Shown piece by piece: positions 5,792 to 20,191 of a stretch of DNA of 64,000 nt; within the stretch, counting starts at the first letter, position 1, and every line of letters starts with the position of its first letter. The position numbers were made by a program, and so were the translations under genes. The notes beneath the pieces were generated by a model, which saw nothing but the letters and a program-made list of their open reading frames with translations, was not told the origin of the DNA and made no database searches. This DNA is from Marinobacter fonticola (GTDB lineage Bacteria > Pseudomonadota > Gammaproteobacteria > Pseudomonadales > Oleiphilaceae): positions 1,178,001-1,242,000 of the forward strand of contig NZ_CP043042.1 of NCBI RefSeq assembly GCF_008122265.1. Reading direction: 5' to 3'.

Positions 5792-7192
5792 GTGAGATAC
5801 ATCAGTACACGGGGCGATGCGCCTTCACTGGGTTTTGAAGACGTTCTCCTGACCGGCCTGGCCCCCGACGGCGGCCTCTACGTGCCTGAATCCTTGCCTA
5901 AGTTCAGTCTTGAGGACATTCGCAGCTGGCGAGGGCTTTCCTACGCCGAGCTGGCCTTCAAGGTGATGCATCCGTTCGTCGAGGATGCGATCCCTGCCGA
6001 CGATTTCCGCGCCATGCTGGACGAGACCTACAGCCAGTTTGCTCACAAGGCGGTGGCGCCATTGGTGCAGCTCGATAGCAACGAGTGGGTTCTCGAGCTC
6101 TTCCGCGGGCCGACCCTGGCCTTCAAGGATTTTGCCCTGCAGTTGCTGGGTCGCTTGCTGGATTACGTACTGGATAAGCGCAAGCAGCACGTGGTCATTA
6201 TGGGGGCGACCTCCGGCGACACCGGCTCGGCCGCGATTGAGGGCTGCCGCCATTGTGAGCATGTGGATATTTTTATTCTGCATCCACATGAGCGGGTGTC
6301 TGAAGTGCAGCGCCGTCAGATGACGACGGTCGTCGGTGACAATGTTCACAACATCGCCGTGAAGGGCAACTTCGACGACTGCCAGCGGATGGTGAAGGCC
6401 AGCTTCGGCGATCAGTCGTTCCTGCAGGGCAAAACTCAGCTGGTGGCGGTCAACTCCATCAACTGGGCACGAATCATGGCGCAGATCGTCTACTACTTTC
6501 AGGCGTCCCTGGCCCTGGGTGGACCGGACCGCAGCATGGCGTTCTCGGTGCCGACCGGTAATTTCGGCGATATCTTTGCCGGTTATCTGGCGCGGGAGAT
6601 GGGGCTGCCCATCAGCCAACTGGTGATCGCCACCAACCGCAACGACATCCTGCACCGTTTCATGAGCGGCAACCGCTACGAGCAGCAGCAGTTGGAGCAC
6701 ACCCTGTCGCCGAGCATGGACATCATGGTGTCCAGCAATTTCGAGCGTTTGCTGTTCGACCTGCATGGCCGGGATGGCGCCGCAGTGCGCGATCTACTGG
6801 AGCGCGCTCAGACCGAAGCGGTGAGTGTGGAGGATTATCGCTGGAAAGCGGCTCGCAAGTTGTTCGATAGCGACGCTGTCGACGATGCGACGACCTGCGA
6901 AACGATTCGCGAAATCTTCGAGCAAAACGAATACCTGCTCGATCCCCACACGGCTATCGGTGTCCGTGCGGCCCGCAACTGCCGACGCGATACCAGCGTG
7001 CCCATGATCACCCTGGGTACGGCGCATCCGGCCAAATTCCCGGATGCGGTGAAGCAGTCCGGCGTAGGCGTGAAGCCGGCGTTGCCGCACCATCTGGCCG
7101 ACTTGTTCGAGCGGGATGAGCGCTATACCGTGCTTGAGGATGATTTGCAGTCCATTCAGGACTTTATCCTCGCTCACTGGAAGAACACCTAA
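5792..7192 (+). CDS. thrC: Threonine synthase
   Basis: 466 residues, the long fold-II form typical of gammaproteobacteria. Converts O-phosphohomoserine to threonine with pyridoxal phosphate. The N-terminus MRYISTRGDAPSLGFEDVLL is typical; the PLP lysine lies in GPTLAFKDFALQLLG; the phosphate-binding loop is GATSGDTGSAA; SVPTGNFGDIFAGY is conserved. The start is GTG 5792. It follows hom directly, placing two successive steps of the pathway together. Confidence 0.96.
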   Translation: MRYISTRGDAPSLGFEDVLLTGLAPDGGLYVPESLPKFSLEDIRSWRGLSYAELAFKVMHPFVEDAIPADDFRAMLDETYSQFAHKAVAPLVQLDSNEWVLELFRGPTLAFKDFALQLLGRLLDYVLDKRKQHVVIMGATSGDTGSAAIEGCRHCEHVDIFILHPHERVSEVQRRQMTTVVGDNVHNIAVKGNFDDCQRMVKASFGDQSFLQGKTQLVAVNSINWARIMAQIVYYFQASLALGGPDRSMAFSVPTGNFGDIFAGYLAREMGLPISQLVIATNRNDILHRFMSGNRYEQQQLEHTLSPSMDIMVSSNFERLLFDLHGRDGAAVRDLLERAQTEAVSVEDYRWKAARKLFDSDAVDDATTCETIREIFEQNEYLLDPHTAIGVRAARNCRRDTSVPMITLGTAHPAKFPDAVKQSGVGVKPALPHHLADLFERDERYTVLEDDLQSIQDFILAHWKNT

Positions 7193-9125: not shown

Positions 9126-10221
9126 ATGGAAATTAACCCCATTCTGAACACGATTAAAGACCTCCGGGAGCGCACCGAAGCGCTTAGGGGGTACCTTTGA
9201 CTACGATCAGCGCAGCGAACGCCTGGTCGAAGTAGAGCGCGAACTGGAAGATCCCAAGGTCTGGGAAGATCCCGAACGCGCGCAGAGTCTGGGTAAGGAG
9301 AGGGCCAACCTGGAGCTGATCGTCACGACGATCGATAAGTTGTCCAGCGGCCTGTCCGACTCTGAGGACCTTATCCAGATGGCGGACGAAGAAGAGGACG
9401 AGCAGGCCGCAGATGACATTCGTAGCGAGCTGGCGGGCCTGGAACAGCATCTGGAGAAGCTCGAATTCCGCCGTATGTTCTCCGGCGAAATGGACGAGAA
9501 TAACGCCTATCTGGATATCCAGGCCGGGTCGGGCGGCACCGAGGCTCAGGACTGGGCCAACATGTTGCTGCGCATGTTCCTGCGTTGGGGCGAGCGCCGC
9601 GGGTTCAAAACGGAAATCGTCGAACTGCAGGAAGGTGACGTGGCGGGTGTCAAAAGCGCCACCATTCATTTCGAGGGTGAGTACGCTTATGGCTGGCTGC
9701 GTACCGAAACCGGCGTCCATCGCCTGGTGCGCAAGTCGCCGTTCGATTCCGGCAACCGTCGCCATACCTCGTTTTCCTCGGTTTTCGTAGCGCCGGAAGT
9801 GGACGACAGTTTCGTGATCGAGATCAATCCGGCGGATCTGCGTGTTGACGTTTATCGCGCCTCCGGTGCGGGCGGTCAGCACGTTAACCGGACTGAATCG
9901 GCGGTGCGTCTGACTCACTTGCCTACCAATACCGTCGTGGCCTGTCAGGCTGGCCGTAGCCAGCATCAGAACAAAGACCAAGCCATGAAACAGCTCAAGG
10001 CCAAACTGTTCGAGCTGGAAATACAGAAGCGCAACGCTGAGAAGCAGAAGCAGGAAGACGCCAAATCCGATATCGGCTGGGGGAGTCAGATCCGCTCCTA
10101 TGTTCTCGACGATAGCCGCGTCAAGGACCTGCGCACCAAAGTTGAAACCAGCAACACGCAAGCCGTGCTCGATGGCGATATCGACAAGTTCATCGAAGCC
10201 AGTCTGAAGATGGCCCTCTGA
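9126..10221 (+). CDS. prfB: Peptide chain release factor 2 (with programmed +1 frameshift)
   Basis: RF2 reads UGA and UAA. The gene is in two frames: ATG 9126 runs 24 codons to an in-frame TGA at 9198-9200, and the rest continues in the +1 frame from GAC 9199 to 10221, for 364 residues in total (E. coli 365). This is the conserved RF2 autoregulatory frameshift, not a mutation. The protein has SPF (in [10 protein letters not shown]), which selects UGA/UAA, and the catalytic GGQ ([13 protein letters not shown]). lysS follows after 79 bases, the usual prfB-lysS pairing. Confidence 0.97.
9186..9201 (+). promoter_or_regulatory. RF2 programmed +1 frameshift site
   Basis: AGGGGG (9186-9191), an internal Shine-Dalgarno-like sequence, stands 3 bases before CTT TGA C (9195-9201). 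The ribosome slips from CTT to TTT and resumes at GAC when RF2 is scarce and the TGA is read slowly. The layout is essentially that of E. coli prfB. Confidence 0.96.
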
Positions 10222-10248
10222 CGGTAGCAGGGTCCCTCCATTATCATC

Positions 10249-10279
10249 GGTCCGGATGTCACAGGGTCCCATCCGGACC
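10249..10279 (+). repeat. Perfect hairpin between prfB and lysS
   Basis: GGTCCGGATG (10249-10258) pairs perfectly with CATCCGGACC (10270-10279) around an 11-base loop. There is no T-tract after it, so it is not a standard terminator. It lies 21 bases before the lysS start and could stabilise the message ends or tune lysS expression. Confidence 0.6.
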
Positions 10280-10300
10280 AGTCAACGCTAGCGAGATATC

Positions 10301-11812
10301 ATGACCGACCAAACCCCGAACGCCACACCCCAGGACGAGAACAGGCTCATTGCCGAGCGCCGGGCCAAGCTGTCCAATCTGCGCGAGCAGGGCAATCCGT
10401 TCCCCAACGATTTTCGCCGAACGACGACTGCGGCCGAGCTGCAAAAAACCTATGGCGATAAATCCAAGGAGGAGCTTGAAGAGATGGGGCTGGACGTGGC
10501 GATCGCCGGCCGGCTTATGCTCGATCGTAAGGCGTTCAAAGTGGTGCAGGACATGTCCGGGCGTATCCAGATTTATGCCAGCAAGGATGTCCAGAAAGAC
10601 ACCCGGCACTGGGATCTGGGCGATGTCGTGGGCGTTCGCGGCAAGCTGAGCAAGTCCGGCAAGGGCGACCTCTACGTGACCATGGACAAGTACGTTCTAC
10701 TGACCAAGTCGCTGCGTCCGTTGCCGGAGAAACACAAAGGGTTGACCGATACCGAGGCCCGCTATCGTCAGCGCTACGTGGACCTGATGGTCAACGAGGA
10801 CACGCGAAGGGTATTCCACGCGCGGTCCAAGATCATCAACTGCATCCGCAATTTCTTTACCCAGCGCGATTTCATGGAAGTGGAAACGCCGATGTTGCAG
10901 GCCATACCCGGTGGCGCCACCGCACGCCCGTTCATTACCCATCATAATGCGCTTTCTATCGACATGTACCTGCGCATTGCGCCGGAACTGTATCTCAAGC
11001 GCCTGGTTGTGGGCGGCTTCGAACGGGTTTTCGAGATCAACCGCAATTTCCGGAATGAAGGGCTCTCGACCCGGCACAATCCGGAATTCACCATGCTTGA
11101 GTTCTATCAGGCCTACGCCGACTATCACGACCTGATGGACTTGACCGAGGCTATGCTGCGCGAAACTGCACAAACGGTGCTGGGTACGACCACGGTGACC
11201 AATACCCGTGGGCTATCCAACGGCGAGACCGAAACTGCGGAATACGACTTTGGCCAGTCGTTCGAGCGTCTGACCGTGTTCGATTCCATCCTCAAGTTCA
11301 ATCCGGACATCAAGGCGGATCAACTGGGCAACGCGGACGCGGCGCGTAAGATTGCCGAAGGCATGGGCATTACTCTGAAAGAGGGCTGGGGTCTGGGGAA
11401 GGTGCAGGTCGAGATTTTCGAGAAGACCGTTGAGCACCGCCTGATACAGCCGACGTTTATTACAGAGTATCCCACCGAAGTGTCTCCTTTGGCCCGCCGC
11501 AAAGATGCCGATCCGTTCGTCACCGAGCGTTTCGAGTTCTTCGTCGGCGGCCGGGAGATTGCCAACGGCTTCTCTGAGCTTAACGATGCGGAAGATCAGG
11601 CCGAACGTTTCCGCGAGCAGGTCGCCGAAAAAGAAGCCGGTGATGACGAAGCCATGTTCTACGACGAAGATTACGTTACCGCGCTGGAATACGGCCTGCC
11701 ACCGACGGCGGGTGAGGGTATTGGTATCGACCGGCTGGCGATGCTGCTTACGGATTCTGCATCAATCCGGGACGTGATTCTGTTCCCGGCCATGCGTCCG
11801 GAAAAAGGTTAG
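10301..11812 (+). CDS. lysS: Lysyl-tRNA synthetase, class II
   Basis: 503 residues (E. coli 505). The N-terminal OB-fold anticodon-binding domain (about 60-150, [20 protein letters not shown]) is followed by the class II catalytic core with motif 2 ([20 protein letters not shown]) and motif 3 ([19 protein letters not shown]). Charges tRNA-Lys. It follows prfB, and ung begins 4 bases after its stop, so lysS and ung are probably co-transcribed. Confidence 0.97.
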
Positions 11813-12608: not shown

Positions 12609-13442
12609 TTACTGGAGTAGTGCCATGGCCGCTTCCATTTCGGCGTTCAAGTCTTCTTCCTGACTCATATCGATGTTGGGGTCCAGCCCCAAGCGTTCGA
12701 AAGCCGGTATCGTGTTCCAGTCGACTTCGGTAAACGGATGTTCGGTGCCAGCGACCAGCTGGAGGTTGGCCACCATGACCAAATCCGCGTAGTCCGTTTT
12801 GGGCACGACGCGCGTGAAGTTAGCGAACTCCGCAGGCACTTGCTGTAGCTCGGCCGGGAAATCCCACTTTTTCAGAATCTTCACGCCAATGTCGGCATGC
12901 AGTTCGTCGATCACGTTGTCCAGCATAATACTGCTGATTTGAATTTCGTTATCTTCGACATAGCGCAGAATCGGCAATACCCCGATCAGGTGGACCAGTC
13001 CGGCCAGGGTGGCCTGATCCGGCTTCAGCTTGGTGTAATGCTGGGCGAGTACATGGCAGATGCCGGCCACTTCGGTACTGGTCTGCCATGTGGCGCGCAA
13101 GCGCTTATCGATCATATCGGAGGTGGCCTGGAACATCTGCTCCATGGCTAGGCCCATGGCCAGGTTGCTGGTATAGGCCATGCCCAGGCGGCCAACCGCC
13201 ATGGTGAGGTTCTCGATCTGGCGCGCTCCGCGAAACAGCGGGCTGTTGCAGACCCGGATCAGGCGAGCCGATAACGCTGTATCGGTACTGATGACCTTGA
13301 CCAGGTCCTGGATGGAGGAGTCTTCGGACTCGGCGATCTCGCGAACCTGAAGTGCGGCTTCCGGCAGGGTGGGCAGCACCAGTTTGTCGCTTTCAATAGC
13401 TGCAGTAATGTCTTGCTTTAAGGTATCCGAGATCGTGGCCAT
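12609..13442 (-). CDS. HDOD domain protein
   Basis: 277 residues from ATG 13442 (MATISDTLKQDITAA). One HDOD domain (about 15-215) fills most of the protein: LPTLPEAALQVREI, the helical STDTALSARLIRVCNSPLF signature, AVGRLGM and LAGLVHLIGVLPILRY. HDOD proteins are HD-related signalling scaffolds, often lacking metal-ligand residues, found near two-component, chemotaxis and c-di-GMP systems; their chemistry is mostly unknown. The frame is open upstream to 13637, but that part reads through short tandem repeats and is probably leader. It is one of three HDOD proteins in the window. Confidence 0.85.
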   Translation of the reverse strand: MATISDTLKQDITAAIESDKLVLPTLPEAALQVREIAESEDSSIQDLVKVISTDTALSARLIRVCNSPLFRGARQIENLTMAVGRLGMAYTSNLAMGLAMEQMFQATSDMIDKRLRATWQTSTEVAGICHVLAQHYTKLKPDQATLAGLVHLIGVLPILRYVEDNEIQISSIMLDNVIDELHADIGVKILKKWDFPAELQQVPAEFANFTRVVPKTDYADLVMVANLQLVAGTEHPFTEVDWNTIPAFERLGLDPNIDMSQEEDLNAEMEAAMALLQ

Positions 13443-13473
13443 AATTAGGGTGTTCCATCCGACGATATAACTA

Positions 13474-13560
13474 GCAGTAAGGTAACTAGTAACTGGCAGT
13501 AAGGTAACTAGTAATAAGCAGTAACTGGCAGCGAGCGGCAACTGAAAAACCAGTAACTGA
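13474..13560. repeat. Degenerate short tandem repeats upstream of the HDOD gene
   Basis: A 19-base unit GCAGTAAGGTAACTAGTAA occurs at 13474-13492 and again, exactly, at 13496-13514. AGTAACTGGCAG appears at 13488-13499 and 13520-13531, and a shortened AGTAACTGA at 13552-13560. The block lies in the presumed 5' leader of the minus-strand HDOD gene. A TATAAA on the minus strand (13637-13642) could be its -10 box. Confidence 0.8.
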
Positions 13561-13690
13561 CAAAAAAAGCAATCCGCTAAAACGGTAGCTGACGCAGAGC
13601 GGCCGGCGCAAATACGAGTCCGCTCGCTGCATTCCATTTATAGCAAATTTAGGCCGGTTCGCCCGTCACAAAACGTATCTGAGGTATTGT

Positions 13691-18002: not shown

Positions 18003-18578
18003 ATGGATGAACGTCTGAAAGAGACGCTGTCCGCCATGATGGATGACCAGGCCGATGAGCTTGCGGTGCGTCGTGTATTGTCTCAGGCGGACAAACCTGA
18101 AGTGAGAGAGCAGTGGCACCGGTGGCAGCAGCTGCGCAGCCTGATGCACGACGAGCGGCGTGATCTTGCGTCGGTTGATGTCAGTGCTGCAGTAAGCGCC
18201 GCGCTGGACGAGGCTTCGTCCCAGATGCCAGCGCCGAAGGCGCCGGTGCAAGTGTCTTCGGTGCGTCGGTCCATGCGTTGGTCCGCGGTGGCTGCCGTAT
18301 CGCTGGCGCTTCTGGTCGGTTTTGGTGCGGGTGCTCAGTGGGGCGTGACCTCGGAAGAGGGAAATCTGGCTCTGGCGGCAGGCGTTGCGGCTCCAGCGGG
18401 TCAAGGCGAACCGGAAATGAATGCCGTGCCCGAGATTGCTCTGCAAGGCCTGGATGAAGAGCAGCGCGAGCAGATGAGTCGCTACTTGCTGGAGCATGCC
18501 CAGCACAACAGCGTGGGTATGGGCTATGGAACCATGGGTTATGCCCGGGTCGCCAGCGCGTCAACCGGTGTCCGTTAG
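18003..18578 (+). CDS. rseA: Anti-sigma-E factor RseA (MucA-like)
   Basis: 191 residues. The cytoplasmic N-terminal domain (LKETLSAMMDDQADEL ... WHRWQQLRSLM, about 1-60) binds RpoE; a single transmembrane segment lies at about 92-112 (SAVAAVSLALLVGFGAG); the rest is periplasmic. In the known cascade DegS and RseP cleave the protein to release RpoE. It starts 58 bases after rpoE and precedes rseB by 15 bases. Confidence 0.92.
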   Translation: MDERLKETLSAMMDDQADELAVRRVLSQADKPEVREQWHRWQQLRSLMHDERRDLASVDVSAAVSAALDEASSQMPAPKAPVQVSSVRRSMRWSAVAAVSLALLVGFGAGAQWGVTSEEGNLALAAGVAAPAGQGEPEMNAVPEIALQGLDEEQREQMSRYLLEHAQHNSVGMGYGTMGYARVASASTGVR

Positions 18579-18593: not shown

Positions 18594-19631
18594 ATGTCTA
18601 TATGTTCCTACATTCGGGCGCGTGCGTTGATGCGCATGAGTCTGGGCCTGGTTGCTCTTTTGTTGGCGGTTGCTGCCCAAGCAGAGCCCACGTCGAGTAG
18701 TTCCGAGGAGGGGGTCGATGGGTGGCTTGAGCGTCTGGGAACGGCTCTGAATACCACCAGCTACAGGGGGGTCTTCGTCTATAGTCGTGGTGACCAAGTC
18801 AGCTCGATGCGCATTGTCCACCGTTATCGGGATAGCCAAGTGCAGGAGCGGCTGGTGATCCAGGATGGCGGCCAGGGGGAAATTATTCGTCACGGCGGCC
18901 GGGTGTTTTGTGTATTGCCGTCCCACGGCCGTATCCAGCTCGATGCCGTACTGCCCTCGGGCCCCTTCTCCGAAGCCTTTACGCCCAGGTTCGCTCCGTT
19001 CCGTCGCTGGTATGCCGCTAAGATGCTGAAGGATGACCGTGTGGCAGGACATGAAGCGGTTGTCATTGTTCTCAATCCCAAGGATGTTCATCGCTATCAG
19101 TATCGTCTATGGCTGGAAAAAACGTCGGGTTTGCTGGTCAAGAGCCAGGTGCTGACCAACGACGAGGAGGTGCTCGAGCGCTTTCAGTTCACCATGCTAG
19201 AACTCACGGATGAGATCCCCGATAGTGAATTCATCATCCCTGAATCGGGAAAAACGCGCGAAATTACCCTTGAGAAACCCAACAAGCCCAGACCTGAAGT
19301 TCATTCACAGGTAGGCTGGACTCTGGGCTGGCATCCAGAAGGGTTCCAGGCGACACCCTCCTCGCCCAAAGATACGCGTCGTCAGGCTGTGTCGTTTTCC
19401 GATGGTTTGGCCTCGTTCTCGGTTTTTGTTTCGCCGGTAGGGGAGATGGACATGCCCACGGGGGTTTCCCGTATCGGCGCAACCACGATTTTTTTACGTA
19501 AGCTGACAGTCGAGGATCAGCGCCATCTGGTGACGGTGGTGGGTGAGATTCCTCCGCAGACCGCCATGAAGGTTGCGGAGTCGGTCGAAGTCGAGTCTCT
19601 GGCTGGCGACGAATCGGGCGGTGCAATGTGA
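18594..19631 (+). CDS. rseB: Sigma-E regulatory protein RseB (MucB-like)
   Basis: 345 residues. Periplasmic protein that binds RseA and shields it from DegS until it senses mislocalised lipopolysaccharide or lipoprotein. A signal peptide (about 1-30, MSLGLVALLLAVAAQAEP) is followed by a large LolA-like domain (SYRGVFVYSRGDQVSSMRIV, LEKTSGLLVKSQVL) and a small C-terminal domain (VGWTLGWHPEGFQATP). Its TGA is the first base of the 20-bp repeat array that leads into rseC. Confidence 0.94.
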   Translation: MSICSYIRARALMRMSLGLVALLLAVAAQAEPTSSSSEEGVDGWLERLGTALNTTSYRGVFVYSRGDQVSSMRIVHRYRDSQVQERLVIQDGGQGEIIRHGGRVFCVLPSHGRIQLDAVLPSGPFSEAFTPRFAPFRRWYAAKMLKDDRVAGHEAVVIVLNPKDVHRYQYRLWLEKTSGLLVKSQVLTNDEEVLERFQFTMLELTDEIPDSEFIIPESGKTREITLEKPNKPRPEVHSQVGWTLGWHPEGFQATPSSPKDTRRQAVSFSDGLASFSVFVSPVGEMDMPTGVSRIGATTIFLRKLTVEDQRHLVTVVGEIPPQTAMKVAESVEVESLAGDESGGAM

Positions 19632-19710
19632 GGCCCCGGATTGTGATAAAACGGCCTGGAATATGATAGAGAGGCTTGGATCGTGATAGCGAGGCCTGGA
19701 TTGTGATAGA
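19631..19710 (+). repeat. Four 20-bp tandem repeats forming a chain of mini-ORFs before rseC
   Basis: Exactly four imperfect 20-base units lie at 19631-19650, 19651-19670, 19671-19690 and 19691-19710; the last reads GAGGCCTGGATTGTGATAGA. Each unit has a GAGG-like site and, 8 bases later, a start codon: GTG 19643, ATG 19663, GTG 19683, GTG 19703. The first three starts open seven-codon frames (MIKRPGI, MIERLGS, MIARPGL) whose TGA overlaps the next start by four bases (ATGA/GTGA). The fourth start is that of rseC. Confidence 0.9.
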
Positions 19711-20191
19711 AGAGAAGGGCACTGTCGTTGCCGTCAGTGACGACAAGATCTGGGTCCAGACGATTCGCCAGAGTACTTGCGGCTCCTGCAGCGCCCGCAA
19801 AGGCTGTGGTCAGGGTGTTCTGGCGCGAATGAGCGATGGACGCGCCAATCAGGTTCGAGTACACAATACCTGTGGTGCTACGGTGGGTGATCCCGTTGTG
19901 CTGGGTATTGGGGAGTCCCAGTTATTGCGAGCGTCACTGCTGGTCTACGCACTGCCACTGGGGGCGCTGTTAACGGGCTCGTTGACGGGTGCTGGCCTCT
20001 GGCCCGGCCAGGATCTCGCGGCCATCATCGGTGGCGGGCTGGGTTTGGCCGCTGGTTTTCTGGCGCTCAAATTGCTGACCGGGAAAGCCGAAGAGGCCGC
20101 CCGCTTGCAGCCTGCCTTGTTACGGATTGATGTGAACCAAGCGGTTCCGGAGCCACTAGTCGTGCATCAATCGAGTACGTTAAACCCCTGA
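19703..20191 (+). CDS. rseC: SoxR-reducing/sigma-E regulator RseC (MucC-like)
   Basis: 162 residues from GTG 19703 (MIEEKGTVVAVSDDKIWVQT). The N-terminal cytoplasmic cysteine motif C26xxC29x5C35 (STCGSCSARKGCGQG) is characteristic; two transmembrane segments follow (about 75-97 and 105-126). RseC is an inner-membrane protein, linked to the Rsx SoxR-reducing complex and to sigma-E control. A TTG at 19676 is also open in frame, but it lies inside the repeat array and lengthens the protein beyond the family start. Confidence 0.88.
   Translation: MIEEKGTVVAVSDDKIWVQTIRQSTCGSCSARKGCGQGVLARMSDGRANQVRVHNTCGATVGDPVVLGIGESQLLRASLLVYALPLGALLTGSLTGAGLWPGQDLAAIIGGGLGLAAGFLALKLLTGKAEEAARLQPALLRIDVNQAVPEPLVVHQSSTLNP

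Follow-up and report, generated by a model that had tools for sequence, protein, structure and literature searches.

A 20-bp tandem array between rseB and rseC of Marinobacter fonticola forms a candidate chain of coupled mini-cistrons

In Marinobacter fonticola the stop codon of the rseB homologue and the start of the rseC homologue are 71 bases apart, and this interval is built from 20-bp repeats. This raises the question of how such a gap arose and whether ribosomes leaving rseB could still reach rseC. The window analysed here is a stretch of 64,000 nucleotides (contig NZ_CP043042.1, positions 1,178,001 to 1,242,000), and its coordinates refer to the plus strand unless indicated. Pfam assignments give the gene order rseA-rseB-rseC: an rseA/mucA homologue (18003..18578; RseA_N, PF03872, E 6.5e-10), an rseB/mucB homologue ending in TGA 19629-19631 (18594..19631; PF03888 and PF17188, MucB_RseB) and an rseC/mucC homologue (19703..20191; PF04246, RseC_MucC, E 8.7e-34), a protein of 162 aa that starts at a GTG and begins M-I-E-E. 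The start at 19703 agrees with those in relatives. The mechanical ORF starts at TTG 19676, which was rejected because rseC of relatives begins at or near M-I-E and because its Shine-Dalgarno energy is poor (-3.3).

Four units of 20 bases occupy positions 19631-19710, where the original prediction had placed them, and the array is detected by TRF (score 90, 20 bp x 3.7). The predicted starts at 19643, 19663, 19683 and 19703 are also present. Unit 1 (19631..19650) has GAGG 19630-19633 and GTG 19643, unit 2 (19651..19670) has ATG 19663, unit 3 (19671..19690) has GAGG 19671-19674 and GTG 19683, and unit 4 (19691..19710) holds the rseC Shine-Dalgarno site, GAGG 19691-19694, together with the rseC start. 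As predicted, there are three seven-codon mini-ORFs, VIKRPGI from a GTG (19643..19666), MIERLGS from an ATG (19663..19686) and VIARPGL from a GTG (19683..19706), each closed by a TGA that overlaps by four bases the next start, at 19663, 19683 and 19703, respectively. A GAGG-like site had been claimed for every unit. It is found 8-9 bases before the three GTG codons of units 1, 3 and 4, with predicted anti-Shine-Dalgarno duplex energies of -5.6, -6.4 and -6.4 kcal/mol, but unit 2 carries ACGG instead and the ATG is left without a site (-2.1 kcal/mol). These sites are modest in comparison with random 17-mers from the window, of which 25% reach -5.2 and 5% reach -8.5 kcal/mol.

The chain is tighter than was first described, with no gap after the rseB stop. 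GTG 19628 overlaps the rseB TGA and shares the frame of GTG 19643; the chain is therefore seamless from rseB, and its first ORF may extend over 12 codons (19628..19666, VRPRIVIKRPGI). By the sequence and the chain script, rseB and rseC are connected throughout by stop/start overlaps of -4 (19628-19631, 19663-19666, 19683-19686 and 19703-19706), the arrangement of translationally coupled gene pairs. The repeat length had been considered just right for this purpose. A period of 20 does produce the -4 overlap, but the same is automatic for any period of 2 modulo 3, because the start codon is followed by A (rseC begins GTGAT) and no stop comes earlier; therefore the 20-base length is not evidence of design.

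We incline, by a modest balance of probability, to the reading that the gene junction was tandemly duplicated and that its copies, in the -4 register, became coupled mini-cistrons linking rseB to rseC. The junction would originally have been a 4-base GTGA stop/start overlap, and a 20-bp stretch with the rseC Shine-Dalgarno site, spacer and start would have been copied in tandem to about four in this lineage. With a period of 2 modulo 3 and an A after every start codon, each added copy would make a seven-codon mini-cistron, its TGA sharing four bases with the start that follows. In the simplest case, unit 1 would be the old rseB/rseC overlap and units 2-4 later copies, and rseB would afterwards have acquired an earlier stop, again overlapping a start. 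In the frame of rseB, 15 nt (a multiple of 3) past its TGA, a second TGA (19644-19646) overlaps GTG 19643, as it should if unit 1 represents the old junction. This TGA is probably the ancestral rseB stop, in -4 overlap with the rseC start.

Ribosomes leaving rseB would thus re-initiate stepwise on the mini-ORFs until they reach rseC, and the array probably keeps them passing from one gene to the other. Coupling would survive the separation of 71 nt, with some loss expected per step; a degree of independent initiation is likewise expected from the Shine-Dalgarno sites. According to PMC10666635, a 38-nt gap cuts re-initiation by 80-90% in two E. coli gene pairs and abolishes it in a third, and across six gene pairs coupling is nearly lost once gaps reach about 20 nt; the same text names a competing model in which ribosomes scan long gaps. 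From this gap dependence, an unbridged gap of 71 nt should uncouple rseC. Stepwise re-initiation, already part of the original prediction, fits this published distance dependence, but rseC may be initiated independently, and its Shine-Dalgarno site (-6.4 kcal/mol) could suffice alone. The missing GAGG of unit 2 and the abundance of short tandem arrays outside junctions in this genome also speak against a relay of ribosomes.

It must be taken into account that the array could be neutral slippage debris, in which the rseC start was duplicated to no effect, rseC initiates from its own GAGG and the chain is a by-product of the period; we consider this possible, though on the unlikely side. In its favour are the Shine-Dalgarno site of rseC, the automatic overlap, a 1 in 3 outcome, and the background of arrays. 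In a 2.064-Mb sample (the window and L053-L112, L133-L172; genes called by a crude ORF rule), 61 noncoding arrays lie in 223 kb of noncoding sequence. The one congener sampled, G004, has 3 in the 42 kb of noncoding sequence of a 400-kb sample, so that the density is about 3.8-fold higher in M. fonticola (p 0.015). Their periods are mixed, with 17, 27 and 17 arrays at 0, 1 and 2 modulo 3. In a slightly different script, which counted 62 arrays instead of 61, 24/62 lay at most 20 nt from a gene 3' end, against 20.4% of random intervals (p 0.0007), and 8/62 near a 5' end, against 22.1% (p 0.09). Because arrays are enriched at 3' ends, a tandem duplication at the end of a gene is not strange here, and at an overlapping junction it would unavoidably touch the start of the next gene. 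Another array of the window, TAACTAG-rich, lies at 13468-13524 inside a mechanical minus-strand ORF, 12609-13637 (22 bp x 2.6, score 93). A dispersed repeat was also seen, as a 25-base match, GGAGACTGCCGGTGACAAACCGGAG, at G000:C1 773366, 999699 and 1663736.

Chance alone accounts for mini-ORF chains as such, which were ruled out as a signal because shuffled sequences contain as many: 464 kb hold 3 chains of 5 steps with NTGA overlaps, against a mean of 5.0 chains of at least 5 steps in 10 shuffles. When the 71-base gap itself was shuffled 1000 times, -4 was kept at every step in 5.1% of cases, and 35% gave a chain when the steps were allowed to range loosely from -8 to +5. What stands above chance is a tandem repeat that exactly links two genes. 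Drift was modelled by introducing 12 random substitutions across the three upstream units. This number equals their ungapped differences from unit 4 and may be too high, since the alignment of unit 1 improves if one extra C is allowed. The chain stayed intact in 7.4% of 20,000 trials, and in 11.8% and 18.2% with 10 and 8 substitutions. As drift spares the chain in 7-18% of trials, selection on it is only weakly indicated, as a hint of constraint and no more, and these figures also favour neutral debris. On the other side, the single substitution in a start codon left a start codon in place (GTG to ATG).

A second duplicated junction was found in the same genome, on the minus strand at 6405-6445 of locus L059 (G000:C1:1520001-1540000), where a GTGA junction is duplicated with a period of 20 bp, the copies being 85% alike in the compared register. 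Here the TGA of a zinc-protease-family gene (PF05618) overlaps the GTG of a seven-codon mini-ORF (GTG AAG TCA GGA GAT AGC CAG TGA), and the TGA of the latter overlaps the GTG of an inactive-transglutaminase/7TM gene (PF14402, PF14400), giving two -4 overlaps. Five congeners have a single -4 GTGA overlap at the equivalent junction. Both junction duplications thus have a period of 20 with -4 kept, while noncoding arrays have mixed periods, which argues against neutral debris, though weakly with n=2.

These two were the only ones accepted among 8 hits of a junction-array script run on 2.064 Mb (45% of the genome), the other 6 being set aside by eye. The whole genome was also scanned for a pair of GGAG or of GAGG sites around RTGA, a pattern that misses copies with a decayed Shine-Dalgarno site; it gave 77 matches, and of the 60 that were read only rseB-rseC and L059 are tandem. 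No third junction duplication was seen in the script output for 2.064 Mb or in these 60 of 77 pattern matches. Most other hits, from this script and from a looser one, were judged by eye, without a family test, to be internal repeats of coding sequences or wrong-strand ORFs, and a candidate ORF in L153 had no Pfam match. A 17-bp GTGA array at L093 12778-12840 was rejected because it sits between genes that are on the other strand. At L070 9728-9815 (14 bp) and L169 17067-17117 (26 bp x 2) the adjoining ORFs have no Pfam match and, by eye, a gene on the opposite strand is likelier. The former has about six 14-bp units (TGTCAGGAGAGCAC) with an AGGAG-like site and is probably on the 3' side of the minus-strand gene 9802-10338; the latter lies, by eye, just past the 3' end of a minus-strand gene that resembles rpsO.

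The state of the junction in relatives bears on what may have preceded the array. The first sample comprised 58 genomes, of which 55 had rseC and 30 loci were extracted (own genome included in each step); in the scripts, the last ORF above 600 nt upstream of rseC was accepted as rseB, with no family test. Among the 29 relatives, 11 junctions are at -4, 5 at -8 and 13 are gapped, including the doubtful placements L023 and L026. In a second sample of 30 family genomes, with 29 main loci, rseB was recognised in 28 (L258, lacking rseB, was dropped, and L276 was left out as a second partial match in the same genome), and of these junctions 24 are at -4, 1 is at -11 and three have gaps of 1, 14 and 104 nt. 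Overlap is the usual state, being found in 41 of the 57 relatives with both genes recognised (35 at -4, 5 at -8 and 1 at -11), and a gap of at least 1 nt is found in the other 16. In a further 60 family genomes, searched for gene presence only and outside the 57 junctions, rseC was found in 59.

The five congeners have junctions of +29, +15, -8, -8 and -4, and none of the five has the 20-bp repeat; the nearest, G004, is already gapped by 29 nt. When 163 family genomes (own included) were searched at the DNA level, the array turned up nowhere else; 16 other genomes were matched, 15 of them in the coding start of rseC and one in the 3' part of rseB. A contig scan found one relative, Marinobacter halodurans. 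Looser bridges occur in relatives: in G003 an ATG overlapped by the rseB stop opens an ORF that ends just within rseC, and in G004 a TTG immediately 3' of the rseB stop opens one that ends at -4 on rseC. The shuffle control indicates that such bridges are not rare. Bridging mini-ORFs were rejected as a rule for gapped junctions, since a loose chain was found in 5 of 12 (own included) against 2.8 expected, which is not convincing; these 12 are the 14 gapped junctions of the first sample, own included, minus L023, with its badly placed start, and L026, and the three of the second sample were excluded. With 16/57 gapped and so few bridges, coupling is no rule in the family.

Duplication of the rseC start may simply be frequent. 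Just 5' of rseC in G015 (genus g11; L025) there is a 22-bp period with 17/22 bases alike, both copies reading M-I-E-E-(A/T)-G-K, which is a probable independent tandem duplication of the rseC start. Genus g8 (L008, L016, L262) shows a weak 19-bp match (14/19) in the rseB-rseC gap at the rseC start, perhaps an old start duplication. Being 1 modulo 3, neither period gives a -4 relay, a point against the coupled reading. The original prediction had also proposed that slippage between strains changes the number of units and thereby sets the level of rseC. These possible repeated duplications would suit it, as would the head-to-tail 20-bp units, of which 3 and 4 are 85% identical. However, units 1, 2 and 3 differ from unit 4 by 5, 4 and 3 of 20 bases in ungapped register, a divergence that would reduce slippage and argues for a fixed array, and there is no tie to a variable phenotype. 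We therefore regard such a switch as very unlikely, and regulation of the rseC level by repeat number can be entertained as a possibility only.

The array could also act as an operator, its GGA motifs 20 nt apart binding a CsrA/RsmA-like RNA-binding repressor or its direct repeats a DNA regulator. GGA is present at the equal place in all four units, 2 bases 5' of each start, and 20 bp is near two helical turns. The core of CsrA/RsmA targets is ANGGA, typically in hairpin loops. The bases before GGA are CC, CT, TT and CT, so that this core is absent from the array, and the predicted folding of the region is ordinary (z -1.5). Rfam gave no match up to E 1, and simple scans for sigma-70-type promoters and terminators found none at the array. 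The repeat unit is not dispersed in the genome either: the 161-base region matches once only, and a 17-base core with 3 mismatches has only 7 matches outside the array genome-wide, against 3 for the reversed-pattern control and a hand estimate of about 10 from base counts. A plasmid search gave no match. Thus an operator role seems to us highly improbable.

Another alternative is that the mini-ORFs lower rseC expression, with an AUA second codon causing peptidyl-tRNA drop-off or the short ORFs occupying ribosomes. ATA is the second codon in all three mini-ORFs in their seven-codon form, and, according to PMC8708949, short ORFs close to a start codon can either reduce or increase translation downstream. 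The same paper indicates that drop-off toxicity declines with length, for which seven codons are long, and AUA is merely the second codon of rseC itself. Attenuation of this kind is thus extremely unlikely.

Coupled mini-cistrons derived from the junction, the reading we favour, have counterparts in known systems. Pairs using termination-reinitiation at 4-nt overlaps share the ATGA/GTGA -4 arrangement and a Shine-Dalgarno site within the upstream frame, but in M. fonticola four overlaps follow in series via mini-ORFs of a tandem repeat. The closest known system is that of the MIRUs of mycobacteria, described in the review PMC12548453, repeats at gene starts with a small ORF at -4 to the next gene, and the sequence here has the same relation between small ORF and flanking gene. 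MIRUs are apparently mobile, insert at start codons and are interspersed, whereas the present array is found at one place and resembles a copy of the rseC start region. The same review covers upstream mini-ORF or bicistronic designs, in which a short ORF stops at the next start and delivers ribosomes; here, by contrast, three mini-ORFs are chained inside an operon, from tandem duplication. The TAACTGA direct repeats of marine Beggiatoaceae are also short intergenic tandem repeats abutting starts, but they have 7-nt units at many loci, mostly lack an obvious Shine-Dalgarno site and, where PMC4679880 describes them, are not presented as coupled mini-ORFs. Among the matches listed from the open-access literature, there is no earlier tandem mini-cistron chain.

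Termination-reinitiation reportedly needs overlaps or very short gaps, and a relay at rseB-rseC would show a gap of about 70 bases with coupling kept. A natural series of 0 to 3 mini-ORFs would suit the measurement of the loss per re-initiation step. The array further suggests how MIRU-like elements could arise by a simple route. More speculatively, and we think it rather doubtful, tandem duplication of -4 junctions might be a recurrent route in this lineage to self-coupled relays, by which genes would become separated and yet stay coupled, with copy number tuning the ratio of their proteins.
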